From: Nakazawaea peltata
Lineage: Eukaryota > Ascomycota > Pichiomycetes > Alaninales > Pachysolenaceae
DNA: 64,000 bases
NCBI GenBank assembly: GCA_001599355.1
Contig: BCGQ01000001.1
Location: 437,135 to 501,134, forward strand
Direction: 5' to 3'
Program-made: the position numbers and the translations under genes
Shown: piece after piece, positions 1,880-57,514 of the stretch
Layout: every line of letters begins with the position of its first letter
Numbering within the stretch: position 1 is the first letter of the stretch
Notes under the pieces: model-generated
The model's input: the letters and a program-made list of their open reading frames with translations, nothing else
Database searches by the model: none
Told to the model about the DNA's origin: nothing

Positions 1880-1953
1880 GTGGCTACATAGAGGCCCAAT
1901 TAGGTACCCATATATATAAAATAAAACGTATCTCATTAATAAGATTAACTAAC

Positions 1954-2700: not shown

Positions 2701-3109
2701 TTTTAATTATTCTCAATTTTATATCCTTCTAACAAGAATTGTAATATTTTTCAGTCCACATGGATCACCCTGAATATTTAAATGAAGGATGTTGCGCGCC
2801 GGGAGCCAACTACACCCGCAGATGGTGACCGTACTAAGTGTGTGAACGCACAGTTTTTTTCAGCATCATCCGATGGCATTTTTTTTTGAGGGAGGGGGAG
2901 CGGAGGGGAAAATTAAGAATTTTGAAGGAAATTCAAAAAAAAAATAGGGGTGTTCTGGTGGGAGGGACGGCTGGGGAGATGGGGTGCTCAGGCACTGTGC
3001 TCGGGCACTGTTCCCTGGTACTGTTCCCTGGGAAACCTAATTTTCCTTCTGTTTACTCTACTTCTTGTCATAGCAAAATATCAATTCAACTACCTCTATC
3101 TAATAAATA
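2701..3109. promoter_or_regulatory. TPI1 promoter region with C-rich (coding-strand) tract
   Basis: 409 bp between TPI1 and DET1, both transcribed leftward, so this is the TPI1 promoter. It holds a G-rich plus-strand tract (about 2888-2990), which is C-rich on the coding strand. ACACCCGCA at 2812-2820 partly resembles the Rap1 core found at glycolytic promoters; this is a weak call. A 13-bp tandem repeat lies at 2986-3032. Confidence 0.5.
2986..3032. repeat. 13-bp tandem repeat, about 3.5 copies
   Basis: Units read gctcaggcactgt, gctcgggcactgt, tccctggtactgt, then tccctggg. They lie in the distal TPI1 promoter near the DET1 3' end. Confidence 0.75.
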
Positions 3110-16299: not shown

Positions 16300-18444
16300 A
16301 TGCCGCCAAAGGCCAAGAAGCAAAAAGAGATCGTCAAAGATGAGCGGTTGCAGGCAGTAGTGTTGTCCGACTCTTTCGAGACTCGGTTCATGCCATTGAC
16401 TTCCGTTAAGCCAAGATGTCTTTTACCTCTCTGTAACGTGCCATTGATCGATTATACACTCGAGTTCTTACTGCAACTGAAGGTAGATGAGGTGTTCTTG
16501 ATGTGTGGATCTCACGCGGATCAAGTCCAAGACTATATTGACCAGCATTGGAACTCTCCTTCCACCCCCTTCAAAATTAATACCATCATGTCTCCTGAGT
16601 CCCGTTCCATTGGTGATGTCATGAGAGATATCGATAATAGAGGTTTGATTACTGGGGATTTCATATTGATTACTGGTGACGTGATCTCCAATATTGATCC
16701 TGAGAAGGTTCTTGAAGCCCATAAACTGAGAAAACTGTCCGATAAGGATTATGTCATGACCATGGTCTGTGCTGAACTGTCTCCGTTACATAGAACTAGA
16801 TCTATCGAGCCTGCTACTTTTACCATGGACGCCAATACTGATAGATGCTTATTTTACCAGGATATTGCCCCAATCAACACATCACGTAGTGCCATTTCTA
16901 TTGACCCAGAATTATTAGAGGGCGTCGATGAGTTTGTCATTAGAAATGATTTGATCGATTGTCATATCGATATTTGTTCACCAATTGTGCCTCAAATTTT
17001 CACCGAGAACTTCGATTATCAAAACTTGAGACGTGATTTCGTCAAGGGACTTCTAACCTCCGATATCATCAAGAAGTCTATCTACACTTTTGTCACTGAG
17101 AAATATGCTGCCAGGGTCGAAAGCTGGAAGACTTATGACTCCATTTCTCAAGATGTCATGGAGAGATGGTGTTACCCGGTACTGCCGGATGCCAATTTCT
17201 TGAAGGATCAGACTTATGTATATGAACCTAACCATAATTACAAGGAGAACGATGTCAGATTATCGCAGTCGTCAAAGCTTGGATCTTGTGTCGTTATAGG
17301 ATCTAATACTTTCATTGGTGATGGAACTAGTATTTCCAAGACTGTTATTGGAAGAAATTGTCGTATTGGAAGAAATGTCACTATCAAGAACTCGTATGTG
17401 TGGGATAACACCACCATCAATGACAACTCCACTATTGAAAACTCGATAATAGCTTCGAATTGTACAATCAACGAGAATGTATGTTTGGAATCTGGAGCAG
17501 TACTTGGTTTTAACGTTGTAATTGGAGCCAATATGACAGTTCCAAAGTTCACCAGAATCAGTGCTGAGAAGATCGAAAGACTTTCAGATTCTTTCGCTGA
17601 CATTGATAGTGAAGATGATGACAGTTTGATGGAATCCAGTTCCATTAAGACGGGAATCACCACTACTTCTGATAGTAAAAATTACGAAAAGCAAATTGTA
17701 GGAGAAGAAGGTGTTGGATTCGTTTATCAATCTGAAGCTGAAGACAGCGAGGACGAAGATGATTCTCATTATAATGGTTTAGTAGTTGAGATGGACGATT
17801 TATACTTATCAGACACTTCGATTATCAGTACAAAGAGATCTAAAAAATCTAAAAGAAGATTCTCCTCAGCAAGTTACGCTACTGAAGATGATGGTAGTGG
17901 AGCCAGTGATGATGACGACGATGAAGAGGAAGATTTCAATAAAGAAGCCCTTGCTACCGTTGAAAGAGCGTTGGAAAACAACCATGACTTGGATACGGCT
18001 CTTTTGGAATTAAACACCTTAAGAATGTCGATGAACGTGTCATATCATGAAGTTAGATATGCCACATCCAAGCTGTTGATCCTCCGAATCTTACACTTTA
18101 TCAATACCAAGACCTTGAATGTGAAACAAGCAGTGGAAAAGATTTTCAACCAATGGGGAGATTTATATAAAAGACAAATCTTTGAGAAACAAGAACAAAT
18201 GGATTTGTTATTGATCTTGGAAGATATTTGTCAGGAATTGGGCGATATCAATGCTGGAAACATCTTCACTATTCTGTTAAACGTTTTATATGACAAAGAA
18301 ATTGTTGAAGAAGAGGAGATTCTCAAATGGTGGGGTACCAAACCGGAGAATGAGTCAACTGCCGTACGCAAAGTGGCTCAAAAATGGATAGAGTGGTTAC
18401 AAGATGCTGAAAGTGAGGATGATGACGAATCCGATGACGAGTAA
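16300..18444 (+). CDS. GCD6: eIF2B epsilon subunit (GDP-GTP exchange factor)
   Basis: 714 aa (S. cerevisiae 712). This is the catalytic subunit of eIF2B, which reloads eIF2 with GTP. The nucleotidyl-transferase-like domain is at about 15-270 (RFMPLTSVKPRCLLPLCNVP, TGDFILITGD). Left-handed beta-helix repeats lie at about 325-430 (VIGRNCRIGRNVTIKNSYVW). An acidic linker follows, then the C-terminal W2/HEAT catalytic domain from about 540 (ALLELNTLRMSMNVSYHEVR), ending in WIEWLQDAESEDD. Codons 58 and 60 are CTG and align with Ala in EFLAKA of the S. cerevisiae protein, supporting the altered code. In S. cerevisiae GCD6 neighbours TCP1 and UPC2; here CHK1 and CDC42 intervene. Confidence 0.98.
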   Translation: MPPKAKKQKEIVKDERLQAVVLSDSFETRFMPLTSVKPRCLLPLCNVPLIDYTLEFLLQLKVDEVFLMCGSHADQVQDYIDQHWNSPSTPFKINTIMSPESRSIGDVMRDIDNRGLITGDFILITGDVISNIDPEKVLEAHKLRKLSDKDYVMTMVCAELSPLHRTRSIEPATFTMDANTDRCLFYQDIAPINTSRSAISIDPELLEGVDEFVIRNDLIDCHIDICSPIVPQIFTENFDYQNLRRDFVKGLLTSDIIKKSIYTFVTEKYAARVESWKTYDSISQDVMERWCYPVLPDANFLKDQTYVYEPNHNYKENDVRLSQSSKLGSCVVIGSNTFIGDGTSISKTVIGRNCRIGRNVTIKNSYVWDNTTINDNSTIENSIIASNCTINENVCLESGAVLGFNVVIGANMTVPKFTRISAEKIERLSDSFADIDSEDDDSLMESSSIKTGITTTSDSKNYEKQIVGEEGVGFVYQSEAEDSEDEDDSHYNGLVVEMDDLYLSDTSIISTKRSKKSKRRFSSASYATEDDGSGASDDDDDEEEDFNKEALATVERALENNHDLDTALLELNTLRMSMNVSYHEVRYATSKLLILRILHFINTKTLNVKQAVEKIFNQWGDLYKRQIFEKQEQMDLLLILEDICQELGDINAGNIFTILLNVLYDKEIVEEEEILKWWGTKPENESTAVRKVAQKWIEWLQDAESEDDDESDDE

Positions 18445-18993
18445 TTTAATATTACATATAGGTTAATTATAGGATAGAAATTAGTATGTAGTACACTACC
18501 TTTCCCCACGTTAATTTTCACTAGTCAGTGGAGCTTAGCACAAGCCTCGGTGTAGAGCAGTTATGAAGGGTAAGTAGTAGCGCGGTAGGGTATGATCTGT
18601 GGGCTCCACTTAACGTAATATCGGTTTGAAGCGCATCTAGACCTCGAACTCCGTCCAAGATCAGCCCCTCCACTGCACCAAGATGTAATCACTCACTCTG
18701 TCCCCTATTATGCGGCTCATGCATCCCGGATTTTCCTTAGTTTGCTTCAATGCGCGAAGGTTCAGTACGGAGAGAGCAGAGCTGCACCTGCTGCATATTG
18801 CGCTAAGTAAAGTTGCTTACCATTTAGGCTGGCTCGGGAATTATTGTGAGCTTTAAGACGGAAATCTGCAAGTGTTATGTATTGTTAGGCTGACAATATT
18901 TTTAGGTGTATCAAGAAGTCGCTTAAGTTTGTGCCGTTTTTTAAACTTTATCTTCATCTGGTTATATTTGCAAAGAGGTGGAGTTTAAGAGTT
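18445..18993. other. GCD6-CHK1 intergenic region
   Basis: 549 bp, the CHK1 promoter. It is relatively GC-rich for an intergenic segment, at about 18530-18800. I looked for tRNA boxes and found no complete A/B box pair. No gene is seen. Confidence 0.55.
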
Positions 18994-21900: not shown

Positions 21901-24900
21901 ACAATTGTTCAATTACTCTACAATTTGGCAGAATATGAGACCCTCTTAAACTACCTGACTTCTTATACTGGGTACTACAAGGATCCTAAACTGAGAGTTC
22001 TCTTCTCATTGATGAAGATCCGACTGCTCTTCAAAATTGGTAAATTTGACGAAGGCTTCCAGGAAGCCGTTGTAGCCTTAGATATCTTAGGTGTAGAATT
22101 CCAGTTAGATGACGAATGGCTCATTTCATATGTTGAAAAACAGAGACCAAAGGTTCCTCTTTCTATGCATGAGATTCAACTTTTATCTAATCAAATATCA
22201 ACTAGAGATGACCCCGATGATGTCTTAATTCCGGAAGTGTTATCGTTGATCTTAATCCCAGCTTTAGCAGAGCAAAAACATCCTTTGATTCATCTGGTTG
22301 TATATATGGGAGTAGTAGAGGGGTTAGAGAATGGGTTTGTATCATCTCATTCTTTGATAGTCTTATTCTTTGGACTCCTTCAAGTCAGTAAAGAGCAACA
22401 AATCGCTTTCAGTAGAGCCGTTGGTTATTCCAATGTGGCATTGAAAATTATCGAGGGTTCTGATACCCCTGTAGAAGTAGGCACCTTTTTATATGAGATC
22501 TATTGTGCTACAATGCTGATATATTCGCAGCCTTTCTCTCTGGTCTCCAAATACCATGATGTCTTTCTTACGGGAACCATCTCTCAAGAAAGAGCTGTTG
22601 TTCGTACCGGTGCATTCCTTACTACTGCAGTAATGAATGTGTTGCCTGTAACAACAGGAAGAGAGAATTTGAACTCAACATTGATCCGTATGACAAATAA
22701 TAGTTGGGAATCGTGCCTCTCTTTGAATCATGATGAGTCTTCTGCTTGGACAGAACTTAACACCAACTCTTTGAGATGTCTTATCGGAACAATTAATGTC
22801 AAGGACTTTACTTTACCATCTTTAGAGCAACAGGGTAACTATTTAGAAGTATCCCAGTTCGATTATATCTATGCCACAATGAAATTATACATTTCATACT
22901 TGTTCAAGGATTTCGATACTGCTCTTCGAATCATATTTAGAGAGATTCGTCATTTCAAACTCTTCTTTAGGTTGACCTGTTATACTTATCCGATCACTTA
23001 CTTCACTTGTTTGGTCTTAATGAGCCTGCCAAGTGAATTGATTGATCTTCATAATATCGATAAAGAAGATATAGACGCTAGAGTTCAAGAATGTCTCGCA
23101 TTATTAGAAATGTGGAGTCAAAGTTGTCCTGAGAATTTCGAGGTCAAGTTCATGCTTTGTAAATGTATTTGGATCTCTAAAAAGTCAGAGTCAAAGTATA
23201 GTCCTGTTGATATTTTAGATATGTTCGATCTGGTTATTGAGAAACTGGCCTCTCAACGTCAAATGCTTGATGAAGCGATTCTGATGGAATATTTAGCTAT
23301 TTGGCTTGACGATTCCAGTGTCTCGAAAGTCAGAGCCTCCAAATGTATGAAAGAAGCAATCAGGATCTATAATTTATGGGGTTCGTCACTGAAAATGATG
23401 CAATTGACCGAAGAATATCATGAATTAGTAAACGATTATAATTGGGCTGGTGTTGGATTACTTGGTTCTCAGTCAAATAGCTCTCCTATTGGTACTAACC
23501 CCCCAACTACTCCAGTACATTTATTGCTTACTAGTTTCCTTAGAGGAGATGGAATCTTGCTGCATACTTCAAGTGAAGACGATCTGGATGAGTATGATTT
23601 CCCACATCTGGAAGACAGTAGCGACGGAGGTCAACTCACTGTACATACAAAGGGTGCTCAGATTAGACATGAAAGTGATTCTTCCATTGATATGAAGGCA
23701 GCATTGAAGATTTGTCTTGAGATTTCAGAAGCTGTAGATAGATCCACTATTATCATTCAATTATTAAGCCACACTATGGAATTAATTGGGGGTAATTTTG
23801 GAGCTATTGCTTTAAAAGACGTAAATCAAGATTTGTATTTAGAATGTCTTATGGTTGACCAGAAAGTCACCTCGATGGAGACTCAACCTTTAAACTCTAG
23901 AGTAGATCTGTGTCCAGTAAAATTGATGAGAGATGTATTTGAGAATAAGGTGATAATCAATCGAGATGAAGATCCGATATTTTTCAGCCGTACCTATCTT
24001 GATGCCGATTATTACTACACCACATCGCATGAGAATTTCTCTAAAGGTGCTCTATGTTTACCTATAAGAGACCAAAATGAGGTGATTGGAGTTCTTTATA
24101 TTGAGTCACCAAGGACTCAATTGCATAAAGATCTTCTTAACTCGGATGAAATCGATGTGATAACCTTATTTTGTACTCAACTGCTGTTTTCTCTTTATAA
24201 AGCTTCTCTTTATCTGCAGATGGAAAGAGCTACCAGACTGGCTAAAGCTGCCACTCAAGAGAAACTGAACTTCTTAAACTCGATGAGTCATGAGATTCGT
24301 ACTCCGTTCAACTCTCTTTTAAGTTGCGCCTTATTCTTATTAGATACCAGTTTAACTGATGTACAGAAGGATTATGTTGAAACGATCAAAAGCTCTTCTA
24401 TGGTGACTTTGAATATCATTGATGGAATATTATCATTTGCCAAACTTGAGAATTCTCAAATGCCATTGGATAATGCTCCATTCTCCCTCAATGAATGTAT
24501 TGAAAGTGCTATGCAATTGGTTAGTGAGCAACTGTCCAATAAGCTGATAGAGTTGGTCCATTTCAACGAATGTTCTGGTTTGGATATAATTTTAGGTGAT
24601 GTCACAAGATTCAGACAAGTAATCGTAAATATCGTAGGTAATGCTGTAAAGTTTACTTCGGAAGGTTATGTCATGGTAAGGACTCAATCTACTGCAGTCT
24701 CCACCGATGGACGTTTCGAATTACTTATCACCGTCAAAGACACAGGTATTGGTATTCCTAAAGATTCTCAAAACAAGGTATTTGGTGCTTTTAGTCAAGT
24801 AGATGGCTCTGCCAGAAGACTGTATGGAGGAGCTGGACTTGGGTTACTGATTTCTAAGAGAATCGTAGATATAATGGGAGGTACCTTAACATTCGAGAGT

Positions 24901-25803
24901 GAGGCTGAGAATAAGGGAACTACTTTTACTGTCTCAATGGTGGTAAGAAGTGATCCAAATTCTAAACAACTTCGATTAAATGGTGTAGGCAAAAGTCGAG
25001 TCTGTATAATTTGCTGTTGTAAAACATTGACAGCGGAATCGCTCTCTGGAGAAGTTGGGATTGGTGGATTCGAGCTGATAATGTCACAGAACATCACACA
25101 GACCAAACAATTATTAAAAGACAATAATTCTGTCTCAGTATGTTTTGTTGATCGCCATATCGTTGAACAGGATCATGAATTGTGGCTACAAGTAGTTGCT
25201 AAATATAAATTTAGAGTAAAATTTGTGTTATTAGGACTGTTTGGTACTATTGATGATCTTGGATTAGACAGAATCTTATTGTGTCCAGTTCAAAGACAGA
25301 AATTACATGAAGTATTGAATGGAGATGATCTGCGTCTTCCAACTTCCCCAACTTCAAAATCTATTGAAAATCTCACCAAAGAATCTATGGCTAAACTATC
25401 TGAGGAATATCCTTTGCGTATCTTGTTAGCGGAAGATAACATGATTAATACTAAGGTGACGTTGCAACATTTAAGGAAGATGGGATATGAACTGGACCAT
25501 GCAGGAGACGGGCTAATTCTGATCCAGAAATGTGAAGCATTGGAGGAAAAAGAAGGCCGTAATTATGATGTCATCTTAATGGATATCCAAATGCCAAATA
25601 TGGATGGGATTGAAAGTTGTACCCGGATTATGGAAAAATGGGGGCTGGCTGCACCTACTGTTGTTCTGCTTACTGCAAATGTTGTTGGGGATGATAGGCA
25701 GAGATGTTCGGATTGTGGAATGAGTGACTTTTTATCTAAACCTTTGCTTCCTACTGAACTTGCTAAACTGTTAATCAGAGTTGCTGTGTCGAAACTGACA
25801 TAA
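18994..25803 (+). CDS. CHK1: Giant hybrid histidine kinase of the Chk1/Mak2-Mak3 family
   Basis: 2269 aa from the ATG at 18994; an ATG at 19021 is an alternative. The order is: a Ser-rich N-terminus; a protein-kinase-like domain (about 80-400) that looks inactive (HNG at 258-260 replaces HRD, and there is no DFG or glycine loop); a P-loop ATPase with GEKGAGKSS (Lys467); a long helical TPR-like region; a GAF domain (about 1575-1750); a HisKA with His1766 in SMSHEIRTP; a HATPase with N-box Asn1883 and DTGIGIP; and a C-terminal receiver with Asp2197 in VILMDIQMP and Lys in LSKP. This is the layout of Candida Chk1 and fission yeast Mak2/Mak3, which sense oxidative and cell-wall stress. S. cerevisiae lacks it. 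CTG codon 2225 stands for Ala of the usual A-L-T-A-N receiver motif. Confidence 0.95.
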   Translation: MSIDHHSPRMSTPSVASSSSSRSRFGRSNLARKGAARSFIQRASHEPRSLDVDDTKRRVLPSLREMNLDAMVANKDMIEGYTLLSKVPPYTPSLVVRYRAVDNETGEKVLIKYSPYSFDATSPFSKLLNEWHLLSGASTKLANSQWMDNVSNFRQPTPITLPKGIPGVLYPSKLLYSKETGACGLVYPNDRELIHFKERFCKVADYPGFISGRAVKSQTHELTRKPAPRTQNEVIEILEAVIKVLKILKPIHDMGITHNGLTSCSLYIDIKTDETFIGQWDFSFSRSMESCANGYRATNKDLLNTLLIYASPEALGNFNRLCDFRSDFYSTGMILYELLVGFPLFQIDSSDDIIKLHLSSVPTEPHLIAPWISKKLSDLIMKCSSKLPTERFQDAGLLINVLTECIYEIDSSIPKDPLYPFPSKPRFISPKTPIDRVDDLNRLIQLYEKNKEGFHNVLVIGEKGAGKSSILGDFRTYLITSGNILYAEWTYEKMRSTSSSYRCFIQIIRSTLQHIISAGPALLRKWKPLISRKIDPDIGILINVFPEIKRFIDSKLLEKKSTQFLEESHLDVLPYKFESKFEYIIKRFFFVFATYGNFGFTLLMDDDQFQLRSERQLFEEIKGYILTHSQGKKPANLRVVSTILLGESYRAFPTLTTKEDIFRLAETECLELSPLSLKGIQQCLREFFPLRDSAEAIELAQLVHEKYLFTRTPLALKSVLTRFALKGLFKIDNSRAIFDYSEFKGEKIPSSYHSYFDFLIEFIDHYQLCSEILRFAACICKGNTFNLYELSAVTGLSLKEAYLAIYPAVSSSLISPIGIDYKIPFHLVEEDPLLSIIPFSKLERLATNCSFEFVHDSLQDYVLSEILSGDQLKEMHRLCALRLYDAIDHFEDLNYGSLIHITRHFIESSDVARPEEHDIYADVLIIGGKILYENYDFNLALIYFKAARQFVDPLLDTDENLATVRRLDLTIVQLLYNLAEYETLLNYLTSYTGYYKDPKLRVLFSLMKIRLLFKIGKFDEGFQEAVVALDILGVEFQLDDEWLISYVEKQRPKVPLSMHEIQLLSNQISTRDDPDDVLIPEVLSLILIPALAEQKHPLIHLVVYMGVVEGLENGFVSSHSLIVLFFGLLQVSKEQQIAFSRAVGYSNVALKIIEGSDTPVEVGTFLYEIYCATMLIYSQPFSLVSKYHDVFLTGTISQERAVVRTGAFLTTAVMNVLPVTTGRENLNSTLIRMTNNSWESCLSLNHDESSAWTELNTNSLRCLIGTINVKDFTLPSLEQQGNYLEVSQFDYIYATMKLYISYLFKDFDTALRIIFREIRHFKLFFRLTCYTYPITYFTCLVLMSLPSELIDLHNIDKEDIDARVQECLALLEMWSQSCPENFEVKFMLCKCIWISKKSESKYSPVDILDMFDLVIEKLASQRQMLDEAILMEYLAIWLDDSSVSKVRASKCMKEAIRIYNLWGSSLKMMQLTEEYHELVNDYNWAGVGLLGSQSNSSPIGTNPPTTPVHLLLTSFLRGDGILLHTSSEDDLDEYDFPHLEDSSDGGQLTVHTKGAQIRHESDSSIDMKAALKICLEISEAVDRSTIIIQLLSHTMELIGGNFGAIALKDVNQDLYLECLMVDQKVTSMETQPLNSRVDLCPVKLMRDVFENKVIINRDEDPIFFSRTYLDADYYYTTSHENFSKGALCLPIRDQNEVIGVLYIESPRTQLHKDLLNSDEIDVITLFCTQLLFSLYKASLYLQMERATRLAKAATQEKLNFLNSMSHEIRTPFNSLLSCALFLLDTSLTDVQKDYVETIKSSSMVTLNIIDGILSFAKLENSQMPLDNAPFSLNECIESAMQLVSEQLSNKLIELVHFNECSGLDIILGDVTRFRQVIVNIVGNAVKFTSEGYVMVRTQSTAVSTDGRFELLITVKDTGIGIPKDSQNKVFGAFSQVDGSARRLYGGAGLGLLISKRIVDIMGGTLTFESEAENKGTTFTVSMVVRSDPNSKQLRLNGVGKSRVCIICCCKTLTAESLSGEVGIGGFELIMSQNITQTKQLLKDNNSVSVCFVDRHIVEQDHELWLQVVAKYKFRVKFVLLGLFGTIDDLGLDRILLCPVQRQKLHEVLNGDDLRLPTSPTSKSIENLTKESMAKLSEEYPLRILLAEDNMINTKVTLQHLRKMGYELDHAGDGLILIQKCEALEEKEGRNYDVILMDIQMPNMDGIESCTRIMEKWGLAAPTVVLLTANVVGDDRQRCSDCGMSDFLSKPLLPTELAKLLIRVAVSKLT

Positions 25804-26715: not shown

Positions 26716-27347
26716 ATGCAGACCATAAAGTGTGTTGTTGTCGGAGATGGTGCCGTTGGTAAGGTAAGTGATACGAGATATTGTAAGTGTACACGACATA
26801 TACTAACACAAATATATAGACCTGTCTTTTGATCTCATATACTACAAACAAGTTTCCTCGAGATTACGTTCCAACGGTCTTTGATAACTATGCCGTTACT
26901 GTGATGATCGGAGATGATCCATACACGTTAGGTTTATTCGATACTGCTGGTCAAGAAGATTACGACCGTTTGCGTCCTTTAAGTTATCCATCTACAGATG
27001 TCTTTTTAGTCTGTTTCAGTGTTATTGCACCATCTTCTTTCGAGAACGTTAGAGAGAAGTGGTTCGATGAAATTGGTCACCATTGTCCAGGTGTTCCATG
27101 TTTGATTGTTGGAACACAAATAGATTTGAGAGATGATCCTGCTATATTAAAGAGATTAAAAACTCAAGGTCAAGCTCCTATAACTCCTCAACAAGGTGAG
27201 AAGTTGGCTAAAGAATTGAAGGCTGTAAAGTACGTGGAATGTTCTGCTTTAACTCAACGTGGTTTAAAGAATGTCTTTGATGAGGCTATCGTTGCTGCTT
27301 TGGAACCTCCTGTCATCAAGAAGTCCAAGAAATGTACAATTTTATAA
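26716..27347 (+). CDS. CDC42: Rho-type GTPase Cdc42, one intron
   Basis: Exons 26716-26763 and 26820-27347 give exactly 191 aa, as in other yeasts. The 56-nt intron has donor GTAAGT, TACTAAC at 26801-26807 and acceptor TATAG; it falls inside the P-loop (GDGAVGK|T). Other G motifs are TVFDNY (switch I), DTAGQE (switch II), TQID and CSAL. The protein ends in a polybasic stretch and the prenylation box CTIL. It controls polarity and budding at the plasma membrane. Its place between CHK1 and CCT1 differs from S. cerevisiae. The adjacent RhoGAP and BAR genes in this window act in the same polarity pathway. Confidence 0.99.
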
Positions 27348-27994
27348 AACACTCCTTTATTAAATAAACAATTTGAAAACTGTGAAATGGTGTAGATAGT
27401 TTTAGGTTAAGTGTTAGAGGCCTGTGGAGTTCAGTATGGTTCAGAGGAGCCTAGAGAGACAATATGGAACCCTAGTTAAAAGTTGAGAATAAAATAGGGA
27501 GTTAGATTAGAGTGGGGTATGGTGATAGTTGGTACTGTAATTGGAGTTCTACGTGATTAGAACCCTTCCACCACTCTACCACCATCATTATCCAACCTCT
27601 CTTCCCTAGCTCTTAGCCGTCAGATTAGTTCGACAGGAGTTAAATTTGTTTATTTTACACGACTAAATTCAAGGTGGACAATTAGAGGAAGAGCAAGTAT
27701 GGGATGGCTATTCTAATTCGATTATTAGTACTGAGATCAGCGATCCAACATCCTCTCACACATCCCCATCACACCCTTCTCCTCTTCTTCCTTCTGCCCA
27801 CTCTTTCCTCCCCTTCTCCTCTGCCTCCTCTCTCTCTTTCTACCTCCTCTGCCTCCTCGCAGTCCTTTCCAACGCGTCTCGTTCTATTTTTTTGTACACG
27901 ACCGCGATTATCAACGCTCAATGAAAATTTTTCGACTATTACTAAAGAAATTAGACGTGAATCAAACCATTAAACCAGGTAATTGAATAGCAAT
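27348..27994. promoter_or_regulatory. CCT1 promoter region
   Basis: 647 bp. A long C/T tract on the coding strand (about 27740-27870) contains many CTCC and CTTC words. It is followed by ACGCGT at 27872-27877, identical to an MCB core (one copy only), and GAAAATTTTTC at 27923-27933. A 90-codon frame through the tract is low-complexity and not a gene. Confidence 0.55.
27923..27933. promoter_or_regulatory. RRPE-like element upstream of CCT1
   Basis: GAAAATTTTTC starts 72 bp before the CCT1 ATG, a position like that at GCD6. Confidence 0.55.
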
Positions 27995-29665
27995 ATGTTT
28001 TCAGCTGCCAAATCTGATACATTGTTCCTTGGAGGTGAGAAGCTCAGTGGAGCTGATATCCGTGATCAAAATGTATTGGCCTCTCAAGCTGTCGCCAATG
28101 TCGTCAAATCATCTTTGGGACCTGTCGGTTTAGACAAGATGCTTGTCGACGACATTGGAGATGTCACTGTTACAAATGATGGTGCCACTATACTAAGCTT
28201 GCTTGATGTACAGCATCCAGCAGGAAAGATTTTAGTCGACTTGGCTCAACAACAAGATCGTGAAGTTGGTGATGGAACTACCAGTGTCGTCATTATTGCC
28301 GCCGAATTATTGAAGAGACTGAACCAATTGGTCAAGAATAAGATTCATCCAACTACTATCATTTCTGGTTATAGATTACTGCTTAGAGAGCTGACTCGTT
28401 ATATCACCGAAGTATTGTCTCAACCTGTAGATTCTTTGGGAAAAGAGACTATGATCAATATCCTGAAGACTTCGATGTCATCCAAGATCATTGGATCCGA
28501 TTCCGAATTCTTCTCCAAGATGGTTGTCGATGCCATGTTACTGGTTAAGACCACCAATACTAAAGGTGAGACCAAATACCCTGTCAAGCTGGTAAATATT
28601 TTGAAACTGCACGGTAAGTCTTCTTTGGAATCTATATTGGTCAATGGTTATCTGTTAAATTGTACTGTTCTGTCTCAACTGATGATCAAGAGTGTTCCAA
28701 ACCTGAAGATTGCTGTATTGGATATAAATTTACAGAAACTGAGAATGGCAATGGGTGTTCAAATTAACATTGATGATCCAGAGCAATTGGAAGAGATCAG
28801 AAAGAGAGAATATGGAATTGTCTTGGAGAGAATCAGAAAGATCATTGCTGCTGGTGCCAATGTCGTTCTTACTACTAAAGGTATCGATGATTTATGTCTT
28901 AAAGAATTTGTCGAGCTGAACGTAATGGCTGTTAGACGTTGTAAGAAGGAAGATTTAAGAAGAATTGCTAGAGCTACTGGAGCCACTTTCATTAGTAGCA
29001 TGTCCAATTTAGAAGGTGAAGAAACTTTCGAATCCAGTTATTTGGGCAGTGCTGATGAGGTTGTACAAACCAGAATCTCTGACGATGAGTGTATATTGGT
29101 TAAAGGTACAAGGACTCATTCTTCTTCTTCTATTATCTTAAGAGGACCAAATGATTTCACTTTGGATGAGATGGAACGTTCATTACACGATTCTTTGTCG
29201 GTTGTCAAGCGTACTTTGGAAAGTGGAAATGTCGTACCAGGTGGTGGAGCTGTCGAAACTGCTTTGAACATTTACTTGGAGAATTTCGCTACTACTGTTG
29301 GTTCCAGAGAGCAATTGCTGATTCTGGAGTTTGCTCAACTGTTACTTGTAATTCCAAAGACTTTACTGGTGAACCTGGCCAAAGATTCATCTGATCTTGT
29401 TGCTAAGTTGAGATCGTACCATGCTGCTTCTCAACAACTGTTACCAACTGATGTTAAGAAGAAGGGATACAAGAATTATGGATTGGATTTGATTAGAGGT
29501 AAGATTGTCGATGAGTCTGTTCATGGTGTATTGGAACCAACTGTAAGTAAGATCAAATCTTTGAAGAGTGCATTGGAAGCATGTATTGCTATTTTAAGAA
29601 TTGATACTATGATTACAGTTGATCCTGAACCAGTCAAGGAGGATCCACATGGTCATGATCATTGA
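27995..29665 (+). CDS. CCT1: Chaperonin TRiC/CCT subunit alpha
   Basis: 556 aa from the ATG at 27995. CCT folds actin and tubulin in the cytosol. Group II chaperonin motifs are present: [37 protein letters not shown] and [12 protein letters not shown]. The C-terminus ([17 protein letters not shown]) matches Tcp1. This gene gives the clearest code evidence. CTG codons 109, 129, 133, 183, 199, 205, 220, 226 and 229, and more downstream, align with Ala of S. cerevisiae Tcp1 (KRANEL, VALREA, LLAVKT, PVKAVNVLKAHGK, YALNCTVASQA). Leucine there would put large side chains into conserved small positions. In S. cerevisiae TCP1 sits between GCD6 and UPC2; the order is kept here. Confidence 0.99.
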
Positions 29666-32427: not shown

Positions 32428-34082
32428 TTACCTGGGGACACCTAGTTCTAATAATTTCGAGAAGACTTCTGCGAAGTCATGTAAGAATTGGTTATTATCT
32501 GAGGCGTAGAAGATGCTCCATTGTTTGAAGATTGGGTCTTCAAGTAAGGCATAATCACTTTTGAGCATCATTAGTTCTCGATTCTCGTTGAAGTATTGCT
32601 CTTGTCCAGTACTTGGTACTATTCCGAGTTCCCATTTCTCTTCAAGTAAAACTACAAAGAATCTATTACTGAAATGAGTAGGATCTTCAGTCCATTTACC
32701 ATCCCAGCCGCTATATTTTGTATGACATCTTCCAAGTGAATGGCCGCCTCCTATTAGGAGTACGGTCTCTCTTTCGTCGAACCCTAAACGGTGGATAAAG
32801 ACTTGTCTAATATGGTCACTTCCCAAATATCCGAGGGGTAATCTTCCATTAGGAGGGACTTTTGAAGTATCAGTGCAATCTACTCGACCTGGTTTCCATT
32901 TCACAGTGGGACATCCCATTTCTTTCAAAGCAACAACAGCTCCTAAAGTCCACAAATCACCATAACTCATCCATGGAAACTTGAGTTTTATAGATTCCAT
33001 TTTCAATAAGGCGACATGAAGACCGGTGTTTCCTTCATCAGTAAGTTCAGGAGTAAATCTGTTTCAGTTAGTATGTTGAAGATGTTGAACAGAGTGCTGT
33101 CTCTAACTCACCTCATGGTACCCCCATTTGACCCTCCTGTTTGAGTATTCTTATCATATGTAGCAGAAGTGTGCCATCCTAACCTTACGAAAGGTGGACC
33201 AAACGAGCCATCATCATAGCCTGTTGGAGCTACAATATTCAGCCGGATCTCCAGCTCCACAGCTCTGTAATCAAATTCCGATTCTTGGGCCCTCTTCCAT
33301 GATTTTCTATAAAAAGGTGAGCTATGAGATCTTCTGGAGAACGATAACTTTATAGTTGGACTCGTATTGACATTTTGTATGTCTTTACTTGAGTCATTTG
33401 GATCTTTTTGAGTGAGAGAAACATCTGGATCATCAACTTTCAGCATATTCTTAGGTGAAGATGATGCCTTCGGAGTTATTATACCATTATCTAAAGATTC
33501 ATAATTAATGCCGCCCTGAGATTTCTCTGGACTCAATAAATGTAATGATTTCAAACTACTAAGGAAATCTATATCATTTGGTTCTTTTGATGACCTCTTC
33601 ATGTTATCCAATTCATATTTATAAGATGAAGAGAATATTCCCCTAGGTCTGTATCTGTATTTAAGAGTAGCTTTCCCTGTCAGTAGATTATAAAGACAAA
33701 TCGGCAGATGCAATAAGAATCTATCGTAAATATAATCCGAAATCAACCAACTATGTATCAATACTTTACTAATTCTCCGCTGAGGATAAAATAGCCCTGT
33801 CTCATCAGCGCTAGGTCTCAGATTTTCAAAATTACTTAAAATCATAGAACCTAACTTCTCCCATATAAACTCCATCTCTGTGTAGACCCAATAGTCAAAT
33901 GACACTGGCCCAAATATCAAAACTACCCATGGTAAAATCACCAATCTAAACCATAACCTGAAGAGAATTTCCCCCATTTTAATCATCCTCATAGTAGTGT
34001 GTAGAATACCTTTAGGAAACATCCTAAAGAACGAAGGTGAGACAGAAAATATAGTTTCATACACAATCTGTAACAGTGGCAT
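32428..34082 (-). CDS. Class I heme peroxidase with N-terminal membrane segment, one intron
   Basis: Exon 1 is 34082-33112 and exon 2 is 33058-32428, giving 533 aa. The 53-nt intron has donor GTGAGT, TACTAAC (33073-33067) and acceptor ACAG. The C-terminal half is a cytochrome c peroxidase/ascorbate peroxidase fold: distal Arg300 and His304 in [22 protein letters not shown], proximal His in [12 protein letters not shown], and the partner Asp in YALLEDP. It resembles the Candida putative heme-binding peroxidases (Ccp2-like). The first 270 residues hold a hydrophobic stretch (about 42-65) and a polar Ser-rich linker absent from Ccp1. Location (mitochondrial or other membrane) and electron donor are unknown. 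Confidence 0.88.
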
Positions 34083-34238: not shown

Positions 34239-35888
34239 TCAGTTAATGGCTGCGTAGGAAATTTGAGTATAGTGAGAATCATCTGGGAGTAATCTACTTT
34301 CGGCATCGGAGTTGTCACAACTGATACCTAAATCTTTTCTCAACTGTTCTGCATATGTGATATCAAAACCGTTGTCGAATACTTTTCCAATATCTTCTAA
34401 TGGGATTCCAGCAACCTCTGGATAATATTTGTACACCATTGCCCAGCAGAAGATACTCAAGCCGGAATATAAATAACAAGCTCCACTTGTGCTGAAAGTT
34501 TCTGTGAGATCTAAGAAAGTACTAGAAACAGCGAAATTAGTTCCCCAATTAACACAACTCATGAGCATGGTTCCAGCAGATCTACTCTCTTGTGGTAAGA
34601 ACTCTACAGAACACCAAGGGACAACACCTAAAGCGGCAGCATAAAATGAGATATAGGTCACTAATGCTACTACTAATAAGATGTTTGGAGCTATGAAGAA
34701 AGCAGTTCCATTGGAAATCAATGAAAATGCAATACCGCAAACAATTAAGGCACCTGCCATAATCCACATAGTATGCAATAACAATCTTCTTCTACCAAGA
34801 ATATCAATGAACACTACATTTGCACAGGTGAAGATGAAGTTGGCCAAAGCAATGAAGATTGCTGCTTTTAATGGATTTTCAAACCCTGCAGATCTCAATA
34901 AAGTGGCAGAGAAACTCAAAATAGCTGAAATTCCACTGAATTGTTGAGCAATGAATAATCCACATCCAACTACTAAAGCTCTAATTGTTCCAGGAGATCC
35001 AAAGAGTTTTTGGAAAAAGCTTGGAGATCTACCTTTCTTTAAACCAGTTGTGGTGGAAATTCCCAAATCACGTTGAATTAATTTTATTTTATCATGCACT
35101 TGATATGATTCGGATTCCGGGAAAATCAATCTGAAACATGCAAACAGTTCTTCTAGTCTATTTTGAGTGACCAACCATCTAGGTGATTCACAAACAAAAG
35201 GAGACAGAATTAAGTACAAAGTAGGAGCAATCAGTCCGATTCCGACCATTATTCTCCAACTATGTTGATGCGATGTCAACAGAGCACTTGCCAAATAAGA
35301 AGTTAATTGACCAACAGTGCATCCTAACGAGTTAAGAGTCATTAAACTTCCTCTTAATCTGGATGGGGCAACTTCTGAGACATACACAGGTACAATCATA
35401 GAGACTGCACCCACCAGGACTCCGACAAAAGCTCTACCCAACCAGAAGTAGAAGAATGAGTTACATAAACTCAAATGTAACGATGCTAAAGCAAATATGA
35501 ACATGCATATGGTGATTACTTTTTTACGACCAAGTTTATCAGCCAAAACACCACACAGAATGCAACCGACAATGGCACAAATAGATGCAACTGAAGCCAA
35601 TGCCAGCTGTTGTTTCGTATTGAGTTCTTGACCATCCAAATCTGAACCCAAAGAAACTAAAACACCCCCTATAATCAGAGTACAATATCCAAATGCAAAT
35701 CCTCCTAATGAGGCACACAGAACCACAATAGTAGCATAGATGGAGATTTCGGTATCTTCAATGGTATCATAATTGTAATATGAGAGTCTGCTGAAAACGG
35801 AGGTGATACGACTGTTTCTCAAAGTAGCCCTCGATGGGATAGTCCTCAACAAAGGACTACCCTCAGCTAAGATATATGGTTTTGTCAT
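34239..35888 (-). CDS. MFS sugar/inositol-type transporter, probable YDR387C orthologue
   Basis: 549 aa, ATG at 35888. Twelve hydrophobic segments begin at about 52. Sugar-porter signatures are present: LADKLGRKK after TM2, ESPRWLV before the central loop, and DILGRRRLL in the second half. The cytosolic N-terminus has an acidic dileucine motif (EGSPLL), which in yeast often directs proteins to the vacuole. The closest families are the Itr-type inositol carriers and Cin10 (YDR387C). The next genes are RVS167, SAC7 and UBA2, in the same order and orientation as YDR387C-YDR390C, so orthology to YDR387C is likely. Substrate is unproved. Confidence 0.85.
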   Translation of the reverse strand: MTKPYILAEGSPLLRTIPSRATLRNSRITSVFSRLSYYNYDTIEDTEISIYATIVVLCASLGGFAFGYCTLIIGGVLVSLGSDLDGQELNTKQQLALASVASICAIVGCILCGVLADKLGRKKVITICMFIFALASLHLSLCNSFFYFWLGRAFVGVLVGAVSMIVPVYVSEVAPSRLRGSLMTLNSLGCTVGQLTSYLASALLTSHQHSWRIMVGIGLIAPTLYLILSPFVCESPRWLVTQNRLEELFACFRLIFPESESYQVHDKIKLIQRDLGISTTTGLKKGRSPSFFQKLFGSPGTIRALVVGCGLFIAQQFSGISAILSFSATLLRSAGFENPLKAAIFIALANFIFTCANVVFIDILGRRRLLLHTMWIMAGALIVCGIAFSLISNGTAFFIAPNILLVVALVTYISFYAAALGVVPWCSVEFLPQESRSAGTMLMSCVNWGTNFAVSSTFLDLTETFSTSGACYLYSGLSIFCWAMVYKYYPEVAGIPLEDIGKVFDNGFDITYAEQLRKDLGISCDNSDAESRLLPDDSHYTQISYAAIN

Positions 35889-42555: not shown

Positions 42556-44382
42556 TTATTCTAAAATGGACTCATCAACTAAAGTACTGTCGTCTTGAAT
42601 TTTAATCTTCTTCAAAGGAGTCTCACCAATCTCATCTTCAGTGGTATCGGCTTTTCTCTTTGCAGGTGAAACCTTTGTTTCCATAGGTTTGTTATCATCC
42701 AAGAATATTATGTCGTCATCTTCAATAGCTACAAGATCGTCGTCGTCGTCATCCTCTTCTTCATCCTCTTGTTTCTCCTCTGGGGCGACCTTCTTTGGAG
42801 GTATATTCATTTCAGGCATTACAATCGAGTCAAGTTCTTCAACGATTTCAATATAGAACTCACATCCTTCCAATTCATCATCTTCGTCATTGATCAACAT
42901 GATTTCTCCATCAACGAATCCGATCTCTTTAACAAGTTTAGGGAGATTATCTTCGAAATCAAAATCATAAATCAACTTGCTTTTACCCAAGATAATTGAG
43001 AACTCTTCGTAATTCAAGCTCGACCTTATCTTGTCTACGACGTCTTGCAATGTTGCTGAGTCACTTAATTTAACAACTTCTCTTGGAATGGAACAACTTT
43101 TACATGAATCTCTACTTTCTGCTACACCAAATGCAGAAATGAATTTATCTTGATAATCTGAGGTGAAAATCATCTGAGATTTGGACATCAGATCCAGCTC
43201 AAAACAATTCAAACTCTGTAATGCACTGAAACCTGCAATTATAGCATTGGTAGTAGCAATCAGTGGAATAATGTTACCGGCAATTTGCTTAACGTCAAAT
43301 TTGCTCTTCTGCGGGATACCAAATATCAGAGATCTCAAATTGGAGGTAGCCACAACAAAGTCAAGGGTATCATCATCATCCTTGTCAAATGATACCAGCT
43401 TAGTTTTTTGATATCTCTTAGTCAATCTGACGGTACAATCTATAAAGACGGCCAAATTCTCTTCAAGGGACCAAATCTTTTGGTCATTTCCATCATATCC
43501 ATCTATTACATAATCATTATAATTCAATGGAGTTGGCTTGGCCCTTGTCTTCCAAAGACTTTCGATTTTCAATAATCTTTCAATATCAACATTGAATACT
43601 TTGTCCAATATTTTGAATACAAAAGACTTATCTTGATCAATATTTGTCAGTTGAGTGATCAAATTCTTCAATTCTTGTAATTCGTTACTCTCTTTCATCA
43701 ACAGGTTAATCTCATTTTTATCATCAGTATTGAACTCATCTTCTCCTTGTGGAGTCTCTAAATCTTCACCGAACAATTGAGAAAATAAAAAGTTCTTGGC
43801 CCATGTAATACTATGAATTGGCTTAGATGGGGTTGATCTAATAGTACAAACAGGGAAAGTTTTGGGTGTCTCTTTCGGTACACATTCAAAGCATTCAGAT
43901 TCATAAGGATAAATAGGTTGGACTTGGCCCTTGAAACCAGTAGTACCACTTTCCATCAATGGTTTCTTCAAGAAAAGGGCTATCCTATTCACATGAGTTC
44001 TTGCCTCGATATTGTCCAACGCATTGAAAATTATATCAAACTTTTCAAACCATGTCAACGGGAAAGTCGAAGAATCCATGATACTTCCATCATATGAAAA
44101 GAGTTTAGTAGTGTTGTTATTGAACTTTTGTACAGCGTTCAACAGAGTGAGGGATTTGGATTTCTTGATATCTTTCTTCCTGAAAAGAAACTGTCTATTT
44201 AAGTTTGATAAATCGATAGTATCCAAATCAACGATATGAATCTCTCCGTAGTTCATCATGATCAAGTCTTTCAAGAGCTCACATCCTATACCACCAGCTC
44301 CTACGAGCAATACGGTAGAGTTCTTGATCTTATCGAACTTGGACTCACCCAAAATGCGTTTCAAATGCGAGTCGCGCACCAT
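42556..44382 (-). CDS. UBA2: SUMO-activating enzyme subunit Uba2
   Basis: 608 aa (yeast 636). It pairs with Aos1 to adenylate SUMO and carry it as a thioester. The ATP site is VGAGGIGCELLKDL near residue 28. The catalytic cysteine is Cys179 in FPVCTIRSTPS (Cys177 in S. cerevisiae). Conserved GTTGFKGQVQP and CFECVPKETPKTFP (zinc cysteines) are visible. A ubiquitin-like domain lies at about 440-530. The acidic, Lys-rich C-terminus contains a nuclear signal (PAKRKAD, PLKKIKI). Orientation relative to SAC7 matches YDR389W-YDR390C. Confidence 0.97.
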   Translation of the reverse strand: MVRDSHLKRILGESKFDKIKNSTVLLVGAGGIGCELLKDLIMMNYGEIHIVDLDTIDLSNLNRQFLFRKKDIKKSKSLTLLNAVQKFNNNTTKLFSYDGSIMDSSTFPLTWFEKFDIIFNALDNIEARTHVNRIALFLKKPLMESGTTGFKGQVQPIYPYESECFECVPKETPKTFPVCTIRSTPSKPIHSITWAKNFLFSQLFGEDLETPQGEDEFNTDDKNEINLLMKESNELQELKNLITQLTNIDQDKSFVFKILDKVFNVDIERLLKIESLWKTRAKPTPLNYNDYVIDGYDGNDQKIWSLEENLAVFIDCTVRLTKRYQKTKLVSFDKDDDDTLDFVVATSNLRSLIFGIPQKSKFDVKQIAGNIIPLIATTNAIIAGFSALQSLNCFELDLMSKSQMIFTSDYQDKFISAFGVAESRDSCKSCSIPREVVKLSDSATLQDVVDKIRSSLNYEEFSIILGKSKLIYDFDFEDNLPKLVKEIGFVDGEIMLINDEDDELEGCEFYIEIVEELDSIVMPEMNIPPKKVAPEEKQEDEEEDDDDDDLVAIEDDDIIFLDDNKPMETKVSPAKRKADTTEDEIGETPLKKIKIQDDSTLVDESILE

Positions 44383-47389: not shown

Positions 47390-48613
47390 TCAACTTCCCA
47401 AGTTATCTGGGTAGTAAAAGAAAGAGATGGCAATGATAATATAAGTACTCAATAACATAGTACCTTCGAGCCAATTACTTTCACCATCTAAAATTAAATA
47501 GTTAGTGATGAAAACAGCCACAAACATCACGGCAGTTTCATATGTAGAGAAGAACAACGACATTGGGGCATCGAGGACCCATCCTACAAGGACCATGAAT
47601 GGAGTTACAAACAACAGGATTTGGATTGAGGATCCAACAGCAACTCCAATGGCAAGATCCATCTTATCCTTACGGGCAACAACAATGGCAGTGACATGTT
47701 CAGCAGCATTACCGACAATTGGGATAAGAATCAAACCAATGAATGTCTTGGATAATCCTGAAGATTCGACAATGTCATCGATCGATCCAACTAACAGGTC
47801 AGCACAGAATGAAATGATAACTGTGGTGACAAATAAAACAATTAAACTGGCAGTAGAAGATAAATGTTTCTCATTGGAACCTCCCGATTGCATAGTGTTC
47901 TCCAATTCTTGTTCTTGACTTTCAAAAAGAGATTTATGAGTCTTCAATTGGAACACAAGGTATAAAATGTAAACTACCAATAAAATAATGGCTGAACATC
48001 TTGATAATGACAAGATTTGTTCATCAGAGGTGCCTGGTTCTGGGAAAGTTGAACCTGGACTTGGGTTTGGTAAAGAAGCATGGAACAGAGCTGGAAGTAA
48101 TAATCCAATTACCGATAACAGTAATAATGAGGACATAGTTTGAGCGACAGTCTGGTTGAAAGTTTGTTGTAACTTGTCATAACCACCAAATACAAAACAA
48201 CATCCCAATACCAACAATAAATTGGACAAAATAGATCCCAACATAGACAGCTGAACGACTCTAATCTGATTCTGGCTTATGGCGATAATTGAGACGATTA
48301 ATTCAACAGCATTACCTAAAGTTGCATTCAATAACCCACCAATTGTCTCACCAACATGTTCGGCCAACTCCTCAGTAGCAAACAGTAAGATAGCAGCCAA
48401 TGGAACGATGGCAAAGAAGTTAAGAGTGAAGACCCATGTAGAGCTGAAGCCCAACTTCTCAGCCAATAATCCTAATGGAACACACAAAAGCAAGACATTG
48501 ACAGGGCTCGAATAGAAGGTCAATAAAGTTGCACTCTTCAGAGTTTCGAGGAATCCTGATGATCTCGAAGCTCCAACTGATCTAGTAGGTAATAAAGGAT
48601 TCATTTCCGACAT
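47390..48613 (-). CDS. VCX1: Vacuolar Ca2+/H+ exchanger Vcx1 (CAX family)
   Basis: 407 aa from the ATG at 48613 ([10 protein letters not shown]); codons upstream in frame lack an ATG. It moves cytosolic Ca2+ into the vacuole in exchange for protons. Both CAX alpha repeats are clear: [20 protein letters not shown] (about 87-106) and [16 protein letters not shown] in the second half. About eleven hydrophobic segments are present, and an acidic/Gln/Ser cytosolic loop ([14 protein letters not shown]) separates the halves. Length matches yeast Vcx1 (411 aa). It is adjacent to PCL2, as in S. cerevisiae. Confidence 0.97.
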
Positions 48614-49304
48614 CACTACTATTGGAAAGTGGTACTGTACTTGAATAGATTGTAAAGACACACAAAATTTCAGCCTCTGCTTTTCAAAGCAAGTGAAAAG
48701 CCGGAAGGAAAATAAACGTGCAGGATTGGTTTAGTGGGGAATGAGGAGGGGGGACTGAGGGGAAGGACTGAGGGGCAGAGAAGAACTAACCAACTAAGAA
48801 GAAGATGCTGTTTGAAGTGGTAAGAATATGACTGGTCCAGTTGAGAACTGCTCCAGGTGAACTGCTCTAGGCTTGTGTGTAATACTATCCTCCCCAAGCC
48901 TTTGAATAACTGTATATGGTAATGAAATTTCCTTTTACGGAAATAATTGTCCTAATTGGGAATACCTCACTGTAACTCATCTGGTTCCAACCTTAAATAG
49001 GGACAGATCAGGGGGGTCTGTAATAGGAGGGTAAATCTGTGAATCGAGAGTATAGAGCAGTAGACGTGTTTGTAGCATATTCTGTTCTCATCCTTTGTCG
49101 TCCAAGTCCTTGCTCACTCTACAAATATGTATACTATGTAATATACAGTAAATAGTACATATACAATATATATACTATATATATACTATATAAACTATAT
49201 AGCATGTGTCTTCTAGTTTATATCTTCTAGTTTATATCTTCTAGTATATATCTTAACAGTTAACTAATCCTTCATTCCTATTATACAGTATATACATACA
49301 AAAC
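48614..49304. other. VCX1-EAF6 intergenic region
   Basis: 691 bp. The VCX1 promoter has a G-rich plus-strand (C-rich coding-strand) tract at 48735-48780. Further right come dense TATA/ATAC alternations (49128-49200) and a 14-bp tandem repeat (49208-49254) beside the EAF6 3' end. No gene is seen. Confidence 0.55.
49208..49254. repeat. 14-bp tandem repeat, three copies plus a part
   Basis: Units gtcttctagtttat, atcttctagtttat, atcttctagtatat and atctt. They lie 50 bp beyond the EAF6 stop, next to a TATACTATATA-rich stretch. They may act in 3'-end formation, but this is unproved. Confidence 0.75.
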
Positions 49305-51826: not shown

Positions 51827-52507
51827 ATGTTCCAAAATTCCGTCCGTGCTTTGACCAGAAAGTCAATTGGAGTCAACAGAGTTGCTCCAGCTTTGACCAG
51901 AACCAAGATCACTTTACCTGACTTGGATTATGATTATGCTGCTTTAGAGCCACACATTAGTGGACAAATCAATGAGTTGCACCATAGCAAGCATCATCAA
52001 ACCTATGTCAATGGTTACAATCAAGCTCTGGAGCAATACCTGGAGGCTCAACACAAGGGTGATGTCAAGCTGACCGTTGCTTTACAACAAGCTCTTAAGT
52101 TCCATGGTGGTGGATACCTTAACCACAATTTGTTCTGGAAGAATTTGAGTCCTTCCAACCTTGACGGTGGTGTCTTACCATCTGAGACTTCTGAGTTCGG
52201 TAAGAAGATTGCTGCCGAGTACGGTTCCATCGATGGTTTGATCTCTTTGACCAACCAAAAATTGGCCGGTATTCAAGGTTCCGGTTGGGCCTTCATCGTT
52301 AAGAACAAGGAGAACGGTGCCATTGAAGTTGTTCAAACTGCCAACCAAGACACCGTCACTGGTCCTTACGTTCCATTGATTGCCATTGACGCTTGGGAAC
52401 ATGCTTACTACTTGCAATACCAAAACGTCAAGGTTGATTACTTCAAGGCTATCTGGAATGTCATCAACTGGAAGGAAGCCGAGAAGAGATTCTTGGCTGC
52501 TGCCTAA
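51827..52507 (+). CDS. SOD2: Mitochondrial manganese superoxide dismutase
   Basis: 226 aa. It removes matrix superoxide. An Arg/Lys-rich presequence (about 1-27) precedes the mature start TKITLPDLDYDYAALEP. Metal ligands are His in ELHHSKHHQTYVNGYN, His in GGGYLNHNLFW, and Asp/His in DAWEHAYYLQY. Length matches the family. CTG codon 82 (GDVK-CTG-T) aligns with Ala in human SOD2 (GDVTAQ). Confidence 0.98.
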   Translation: MFQNSVRALTRKSIGVNRVAPALTRTKITLPDLDYDYAALEPHISGQINELHHSKHHQTYVNGYNQALEQYLEAQHKGDVKLTVALQQALKFHGGGYLNHNLFWKNLSPSNLDGGVLPSETSEFGKKIAAEYGSIDGLISLTNQKLAGIQGSGWAFIVKNKENGAIEVVQTANQDTVTGPYVPLIAIDAWEHAYYLQYQNVKVDYFKAIWNVINWKEAEKRFLAAA

Positions 52508-55879: not shown

Positions 55880-57514
55880 CTATAATCCTTGGATCAGAGC
55901 AGTGATTTCATCGACTCCAGTCAGATTCCATTCGGCCAACTTAAGTTTAACAACCTCAACTACGTCCTTAGCATCGATTAATTCACCATCATCTGATTCT
56001 CCAGTACCTAACTTCTTTACTCTCAATTTACCATCGGCATATTCCTCTTTACCTAAGATAACACCAATTGGACAGCCCGATTTTTCAGCAGCATCGAATT
56101 GCTTTCTTAAATTTATCTTTTGCTTGTAAGAGAACTCGGTGTTAATACCGGCAGACCATAATTGTTTGGCAACGGTCATTCTTTCCTTCAAGAAACCATC
56201 CCAGTTCTCACCACCACCAACGGCCATGACATAGACATCAGTAGAAGTAGGTCTGATGTTGATTTGTTTGTTGGCCAAGTTTTGCTTGATGATGGAGAAG
56301 ATTCTCTCAACACCAAACGAAATACCGACACATGGGATTTGAGGCAGAGGTTTTCCAGACTTGGATGGGGCAGAGAACATACTGACCAAACCATCGTATC
56401 TACCACCAGCAGCAATAGAACCAACACCAACGTATTCTGAAGCATCGTCATCCTCTTTAAGTTTAGATTTCTTCTCAGCAGCTCCCTTTGGTGGGGCAGA
56501 CAGAGAAGTAACAGCCTCATAAATTAATCCGGTATAATAATCCAAACCTCTGGCCAAAGATAAATCGAACGAGACAAATTGGGAGATTCCAAAGGCTTCT
56601 AAATAATTGGCCAAAGTTTCCATATCTTTCAAACCTTCAACGGCAGATTTACTGGCTTGTAAAGTTTCATTGTTTTGTAAGAGTTGTAAAACCTCGGTAA
56701 TATTACCATTCAATTTAACGAATTCACCGATTTTGTCGGCAACTTCTTCAGGTTGGTTCTTCTCTTCACACATCTCCTTCTTGACAACTTCCCATGGACT
56801 TTTGTCCAATTTATCAACGGCAGAAGAAACTCTTCTGACATCTTCAAGCTTAACACCACAGACTTCAAAAATACCATCCAAAATCTTTCTATGGTTCAAC
56901 TTGATCTTGAAATCTTTGATACCCAAACCGGTCAAACCTTCAACTAAGATATTCAAGATCTCAGAATCAGGAACCATACTGTCATAAGTACCGGCGACAT
57001 CGAAATCACATTGATAAAACTCTCTCATTCTACCTTTAGTCATTGCTGGTTGATCTCTTCTGTAAACTTTGGCGATGTGGTATCTCTTGATTTGTTGGAT
57101 ACCGTTCATAGCAACGTATCTGGCAAATGGGACGGTCAAATCATATCTCAAAGAGGTCAATTCACCACCTTGATCTTCCAAATTGTAGATCAATTTGGAG
57201 TCTTCACCATACTTACCGGATAAGATTTCTCTCAACTCGAAGACAGGAGTATCAATGGTGACACCACCATGTCTCTTGAACAAGGAAGACAAGCTGTTGA
57301 AAATGGACTCTCTGATCACCATATCTTTATCAGCCCAATCTTTGGTACCTTTTGGGGTCTTCAAAGTGAATTGTTGGACGGCATCTTTCTTCTTGGATTG
57401 TTTAGGTTTTTGGGAGGTGGCGGTAACAGTGGCTGCGGCGGCGGCAACTGGCAGTTCAGATGACATGTTTCGTATGCTTAGATAATTCTTTGGTATTAAA
57501 CACCTACGAAACAT
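55880..57514 (-). CDS. HTS1: Histidyl-tRNA synthetase, likely dual cytosolic and mitochondrial
   Basis: 544 aa from the ATG at 57514. A second in-frame ATG at 57466 (MSSELP) gives 528 aa. The first 16 residues ([16 protein letters not shown]) form a basic, amphipathic presequence. As in S. cerevisiae HTS1, the first start probably serves mitochondria and the second the cytosol. Class II motifs: [11 protein letters not shown], motif 2 [21 protein letters not shown], and the HisA signatures [10 protein letters not shown] and GGRYDGLV. A Lys/Ser-rich insert (about 365-390) lies between them. The C-terminal anticodon-binding domain begins near 435 (DVYVMAVGG). Confidence 0.97.

Follow-up and report, generated by a model that had tools for sequence, protein, structure and literature searches.

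Alignments and tRNA genes together indicate that the nuclear genome behind the window (the whole 64,000-nucleotide stretch of DNA analysed here) very probably follows NCBI table 26, the CUG-Ala code; we put the probability at about 0.97. The code itself is already known, having been in print since 2016 (PMC5951914; PMC5304391), and the window adds a further case, perhaps from a species already studied. PMC5951914 assigns Pachysolen, Nakazawaea and Peterozyma to the Ala clade, and PMC11415595 and PMC11540330 agree. Judged from the code, membership of the organism in the order Alaninales (Pachysolenaceae), which exists in NCBI taxonomy, is most likely. The preliminary description had likewise placed it with Pachysolen and relatives, in keeping with the literature.

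The CCT1 (TCP-1 alpha) gene lies in an open frame that runs from 27983 to 29665 on the forward strand, the ATG at 27995 being the likely start. The best chain for this frame is 4v81_A (T-complex protein 1 alpha; 973 bits), which we take to be S. cerevisiae Tcp1. In-frame CTG codons were entered as X in the alignment, so that no residue reading was favoured. Ala is the partner of 18 of the 19 and Val that of the remaining one (X241), a stronger result than the roughly 16 of 19 given in the preliminary description. That description had placed the codons in the span 28319..29478. The first CTG does occupy 28319-28321, but the last is found at 29438-29440, slightly before the end of the span; its codon numbers equal ours minus 4. 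With the human chain 6qb8_a, compared by eye, 13 of the 18 aligned CTG codons face Ala, two Ser, two Gly and one Thr, the nineteenth meeting a gap. The Pfam family PF00118 (Cpn60_TCP1) scores 533.4 bits on CCT1 with CTG read as Ala, 515.2 as Ser and 506.6 as Leu.

Five yeast-referenced alignments were parsed codon by codon. CCT1 and VCX1 come from the window, while RPB2, RPC2 and RPA135 are partial frames (L116-L118) of the same genome obtained with a PF00562 search. The reference chains are presumably all from S. cerevisiae, except that of RPB2, presumably from K. phaffii. The genes were picked for being conserved; together with the hybrid kinase and the five further window genes treated below, they make up the whole set covered by the comparison of CTG readings. 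After removal of three CTG codons without a partner (two in RPB2, one in VCX1), 60 remain, of which 45 face Ala, 3 Ser and 1 Leu. The GCN codons face Ala at 147 of 201 sites and Leu at 3; their share on Ala and that of CTG are alike (p = 0.87). Leu codons other than CTG, among them a single CTA, are found on Leu at 308 of 353 sites and on Ala at only two, so that their share on Ala is far from that of CTG (Fisher p about 1e-44). Ser codons face Ser at 185 of 258 sites and Ala at 15, and again differ from CTG (p about 1e-22). Among the 60 different codons seen, the commonest partner is non-standard only for CTG and for CCC, the latter with two sites and a tie. The CTG-on-Ala pattern recurs among genes of three contigs (C1, C7 and C9). 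Thus, the alignment check proposed in the preliminary description places the CTG sites mainly on Ala, with a GCN-like profile, and not on Leu or Ser.

Table 1. Features of the window and of the genome discussed in the text. Positions are those of the window unless a contig is named.
Feature	Position	Strand	CTG codons	Partners of aligned CTG codons, or remark
CCT1 (TCP-1 alpha)	27995..29665	+	19	All between 28319 and 29440
Hybrid histidine kinase	18931-25803	+	49	2290 residues
eIF2B epsilon (GCD6)-like	16300..18444	+	8	6i3m_G, by eye: 5 Ala, 1 Lys, 1 Leu, 1 Val of 8
Sugar-transporter-like	34239..35888	-	9	4lds_A (distant), by eye: 3 Ala, 3 Gly, 1 Val, 1 Ser, 1 Ile of 9
SUMO E1 subunit 2 (UBA2)-like	42556..44382	-	8	6cwy_D (human-type), by eye: 3 Ala, 2 Glu, 1 His, 1 Gly, 1 Lys of 8
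VCX1-like vacuolar Ca2+/H+ exchanger	47390..48661	-	7	4k1c_A: 5 Ala, 1 Phe of 6 aligned; 1 of 7 unaligned
Mitochondrial Mn superoxide dismutase-like (SOD2)	51827..52507	+	3	3rn4_A, by eye: 0 Ala of 3 (Val, Gln, Lys)
Histidyl-tRNA synthetase (HisRS)	55880..57514	-	5	4phc_A, by eye: 0 Ala of 1 aligned (Gln); 4 of 5 unaligned or gapped
CTG-free frame	1954-2700	-	0
CTG-free frame	26829-27347	+	0
CTG-free frame	32428-33006	-	0
Antisense long frame	1867-2706	+		Taken as chance
Antisense long frame	5008-6084	+		Taken as chance
Antisense long frame	40404-40889	-		Taken as chance
tRNA(CAG) gene	Contig C4, 81426-81498 (L084, 1469-1541)	+
tRNA-Leu(UAG) gene	Contig C4, near 804530 (L087, about 1489-1696)	-		120-base intron (ARAGORN)

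GCD6, UBA2, SOD2, HisRS and the transporter have fewer informative CTG sites than the five main alignments. Their addition brings the count to 56 Ala, 4 Ser and 2 Leu among 89 CTG sites. The non-Ala partner at 33 of the 89, those in SOD2 and HisRS included, counts against the Ala reading. The earlier statement that every standard-code translation of the window is wrong at CTG extrapolates to poorly conserved sites, and the sites in SOD2 and HisRS speak neither for it nor against it.

Scores computed with the three readings of CTG mostly follow the counts. Summed over the 89 sites, BLOSUM62 is best for Ala (104 bits), with 27.5 for Ser and -52 for Leu. Pfam totals, added by hand, are 1031.8 (Ala), 1029.8 (Ser) and 1019.4 (Leu) for RPB2, 931.3, 920.5 and 908.8 for RPC2, and 807.9, 802.6 and 793.1 for RPA135. 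Over seven shared families, the hybrid histidine kinase totals 358.7, 348.0 and 346.4, respectively. Against the Ala reading, its Pkinase match favours Leu (43.2 versus 38.2), and some Pfam matches favour Ser by less than 2 bits (HATPase_c and HisKA, about 1 bit each, and domains of RPB2). For GCD6, UBA2, VCX1 and SOD2, where Ala was compared with Leu, Ala scores better in 6 of 12 Pfam matches and Leu in 2, the other 4 being ties; the two that favour Leu (GCD6 W2 and UBA2 UAE_UbL) do so by less than 1 bit. The kinase has kinase-like, AAA, GAF, HisKA, HATPase and receiver matches, and its listed GTG start is mechanical.

In the window, CTG accounts for 244 of the 14701 codons of 32 frames (16.6 per 1000), the antisense long frames being kept outside the codon counts. 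Read as Ala, it makes up 24% of 1003 Ala codons and is second to GCT (387). CTA codons are rare (30 of the 14701). Three of the 32 frames are free of CTG, among them one that we take to be TPI-like, with 31 GCN codons, and one that we take to be Rho-type GTPase-like. This suggests that highly expressed genes avoid CTG, and would fit a rare tRNA. PMC5951914 describes CUG as fairly infrequent in clades with a changed code and as tending to lie outside well-conserved sites. The window departs from that picture in its CTG frequency, and in the genes compared here, chosen as conserved, CTG is often on conserved Ala.

The preliminary description had also suggested searching the genome for a CAG-anticodon tRNA with alanine identity (G3:U70), and one is indeed present. 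A class I tRNA pattern with the anticodon loop TCAGR has 35 matches in the genome, 30 of which were cut out, and a pattern with a longer variable arm has 17. In all, 47 loci were scanned by ARAGORN, one of which is tRNA(CAG); the search covered U33-bearing forms, and five TCAGR matches fell outside the scan. A genome search with its own sequence finds a single copy. The G3:U70 pair is the main alanine identity element of tRNA. In the tRNA(CAG) acceptor stem it lies among G1:C72, G2:C71, C4:G69 and a U6:U67 mismatch, with A73 as discriminator. The gene is of class I: its variable loop is short (5 bases), position 37 is G, and a run of T follows downstream. From G3:U70, A73 and the short variable loop, its predicted identity is alanine. 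The label 'Leu' given by ARAGORN was set aside, as it reflects the anticodon alone.

The Rfam tRNA model scores tRNA(CAG) at 50.9 bits with permissive filters and misses it at the default ones. In the genome-wide Rfam search, which scored 63 of 608 candidates, tRNA(CAG) is absent although the lowest score listed is 47.4 bits. The loose first pass evidently dropped it, and the Rfam list is therefore incomplete. The minimum-energy fold is not a cloverleaf (z 0.15); this poor folding and the miss at default filters count against the CUG-Ala reading. No genome match was obtained with a guessed query made of an Ala-like 5' half and a CAG anticodon, and a DNA search with tRNA-Ala(AGC) returned six tRNA-Ala genes and nothing else.

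An exact 5'-half pattern for class II (Leu/Ser) tRNA genes matches 16 places in the genome. These are nine Leu tRNA genes with the anticodons CAA (5), UAA (2), AAG (1) and UAG (1), and seven Ser tRNA genes with AGA (3), GCU (2), CGA (1) and UGA (1). One tRNA-Leu(CAA) copy (L126, 3-108, forward strand) has an intron, the other four being without; ARAGORN calls it Val(CAC) with an intron, which we read as Leu(CAA). The CAG anticodon occurs in none of the 16 genes, within an exact pattern that a variant gene could escape. A CAG tRNA of Leu or Ser identity, which the preliminary description had named as contrary evidence, is likewise missing from this non-exhaustive set. By wobble, tRNA-Leu(UAG) could in principle compete for CUG, and it is the only tRNA that could.

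In the most probable scheme, tRNA(CAG) would be charged by alanyl-tRNA synthetase through G3:U70, by an enzyme that does not read the anticodon, and the charged tRNA would insert Ala at CUG, the ancestral tRNA-Leu(CAG) being gone. We infer the expression and charging of tRNA(CAG), the loss of tRNA-Leu(CAG) and a full rather than partial reassignment from these genes and alignments. PMC5951914 states that AlaRS and SerRS require no particular anticodon bases.

A partial reassignment, in which Ala predominates at CUG but tRNA-Leu(UAG) wobble supplies a genuine minority of Leu, is unlikely but is the alternative that we take most seriously. The required tRNA gene exists (a single copy was found, interrupted by a long intron), and alignments would not reveal another residue present at a few per cent. 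Nevertheless, Leu is as rare a partner of CTG (1/60) as of GCN (3/201), so that there is no sign of CTG sites kept for Leu. Reading CUG as Ser, as in the Candida or Ascoidea clades, is highly improbable. Ser does score second-best in the summed BLOSUM62, and in Pfam both for CCT1 and for four of the five proteins to which all three readings were applied, as is expected from the similarity of Ala and Ser. The alignment counts refute it, only 3 of 60 CTG codons facing Ser as against 185 of 258 Ser codons. Moreover, the short variable loop indicates that tRNA(CAG) is not a serine tRNA, and the CAG anticodon is found in none of the seven Ser tRNA genes matched by the 5' pattern. The standard code, under which CTG would be found at Ala positions by coincidence or because Ala had locally changed to Leu, is supported only by being the default. 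We consider it the least credible of all, as it is refuted by the contrast between CTG and the other Leu codons on Leu (1/60 versus 308/353) in genes on three contigs.

The CUG-Ala code thus remains the preferred reading, and the case resembles the Alaninales code in having CUG on conserved Ala and an alanine-type tRNA(CAG). No tRNA-Leu(CAG) turned up among the 16 class II genes of the exact pattern, which a variant gene could escape. In CUG-Ser1 and CUG-Ser2 (Candida clade; Ascoidea and Saccharomycopsis), the same codon has likewise been captured by a new tRNA(CAG). However, those codes insert Ser by means of a class II serine tRNA, whereas here the residue would be Ala and the variable loop is short. 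PMC5951914 proposes killer elements as the cause of such changes. A search for the linear-plasmid type DNA polymerase (PF03175) gave no match, and neither did its controls, so that the search says nothing on killer elements.

The origin of the tRNA(CAG) body is less clear-cut. It matches tRNA-Val(UAC) of the same genome in 52 of 74 columns and tRNA-Ala(AGC) in 49 to 51, depending on the alignment (a value of 50 includes one shared gap). The D and anticodon arms are nearer to tRNA-Val(UAC), whereas the agreement with tRNA-Ala(AGC) is strongest in the variable loop, the T arm and the acceptor stem. The body thus seems about equally close to tRNA-Val and tRNA-Ala, by a margin too small to decide between them. 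This differs from PMC5951914, which derives the tRNA(CAG) of the CUG-Ala clade from tRNA-Ala, and the lack of a clear tRNA-Ala descent counts against the main reading. It is conceivable, though doubtful, that the CUG-capturing tRNA is a valine-type body, or a Val/Ala mosaic, that would have become an alanine acceptor by gain of G3:U70, rather than a tRNA-Ala that had simply mutated its anticodon. Patterns for tRNA-Val(CAC) and tRNA-Val(AAC) matched 1 and 2 places in the genome, respectively, none of them a tRNA; as Val(AAC) is expected in any yeast, these missing matches say little. If a valine-type or mosaic origin were true, the reassignment of CUG would have come about through an altered acceptor identity.

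Nuclear genomes very seldom reassign a sense codon. Applied to this genome, the standard code would yield gene models with about 17 wrong residues per 1000. With CTG often on conserved Ala, the genome lends itself well to quantifying residual Leu decoding and to finding out which tRNA captured CUG.
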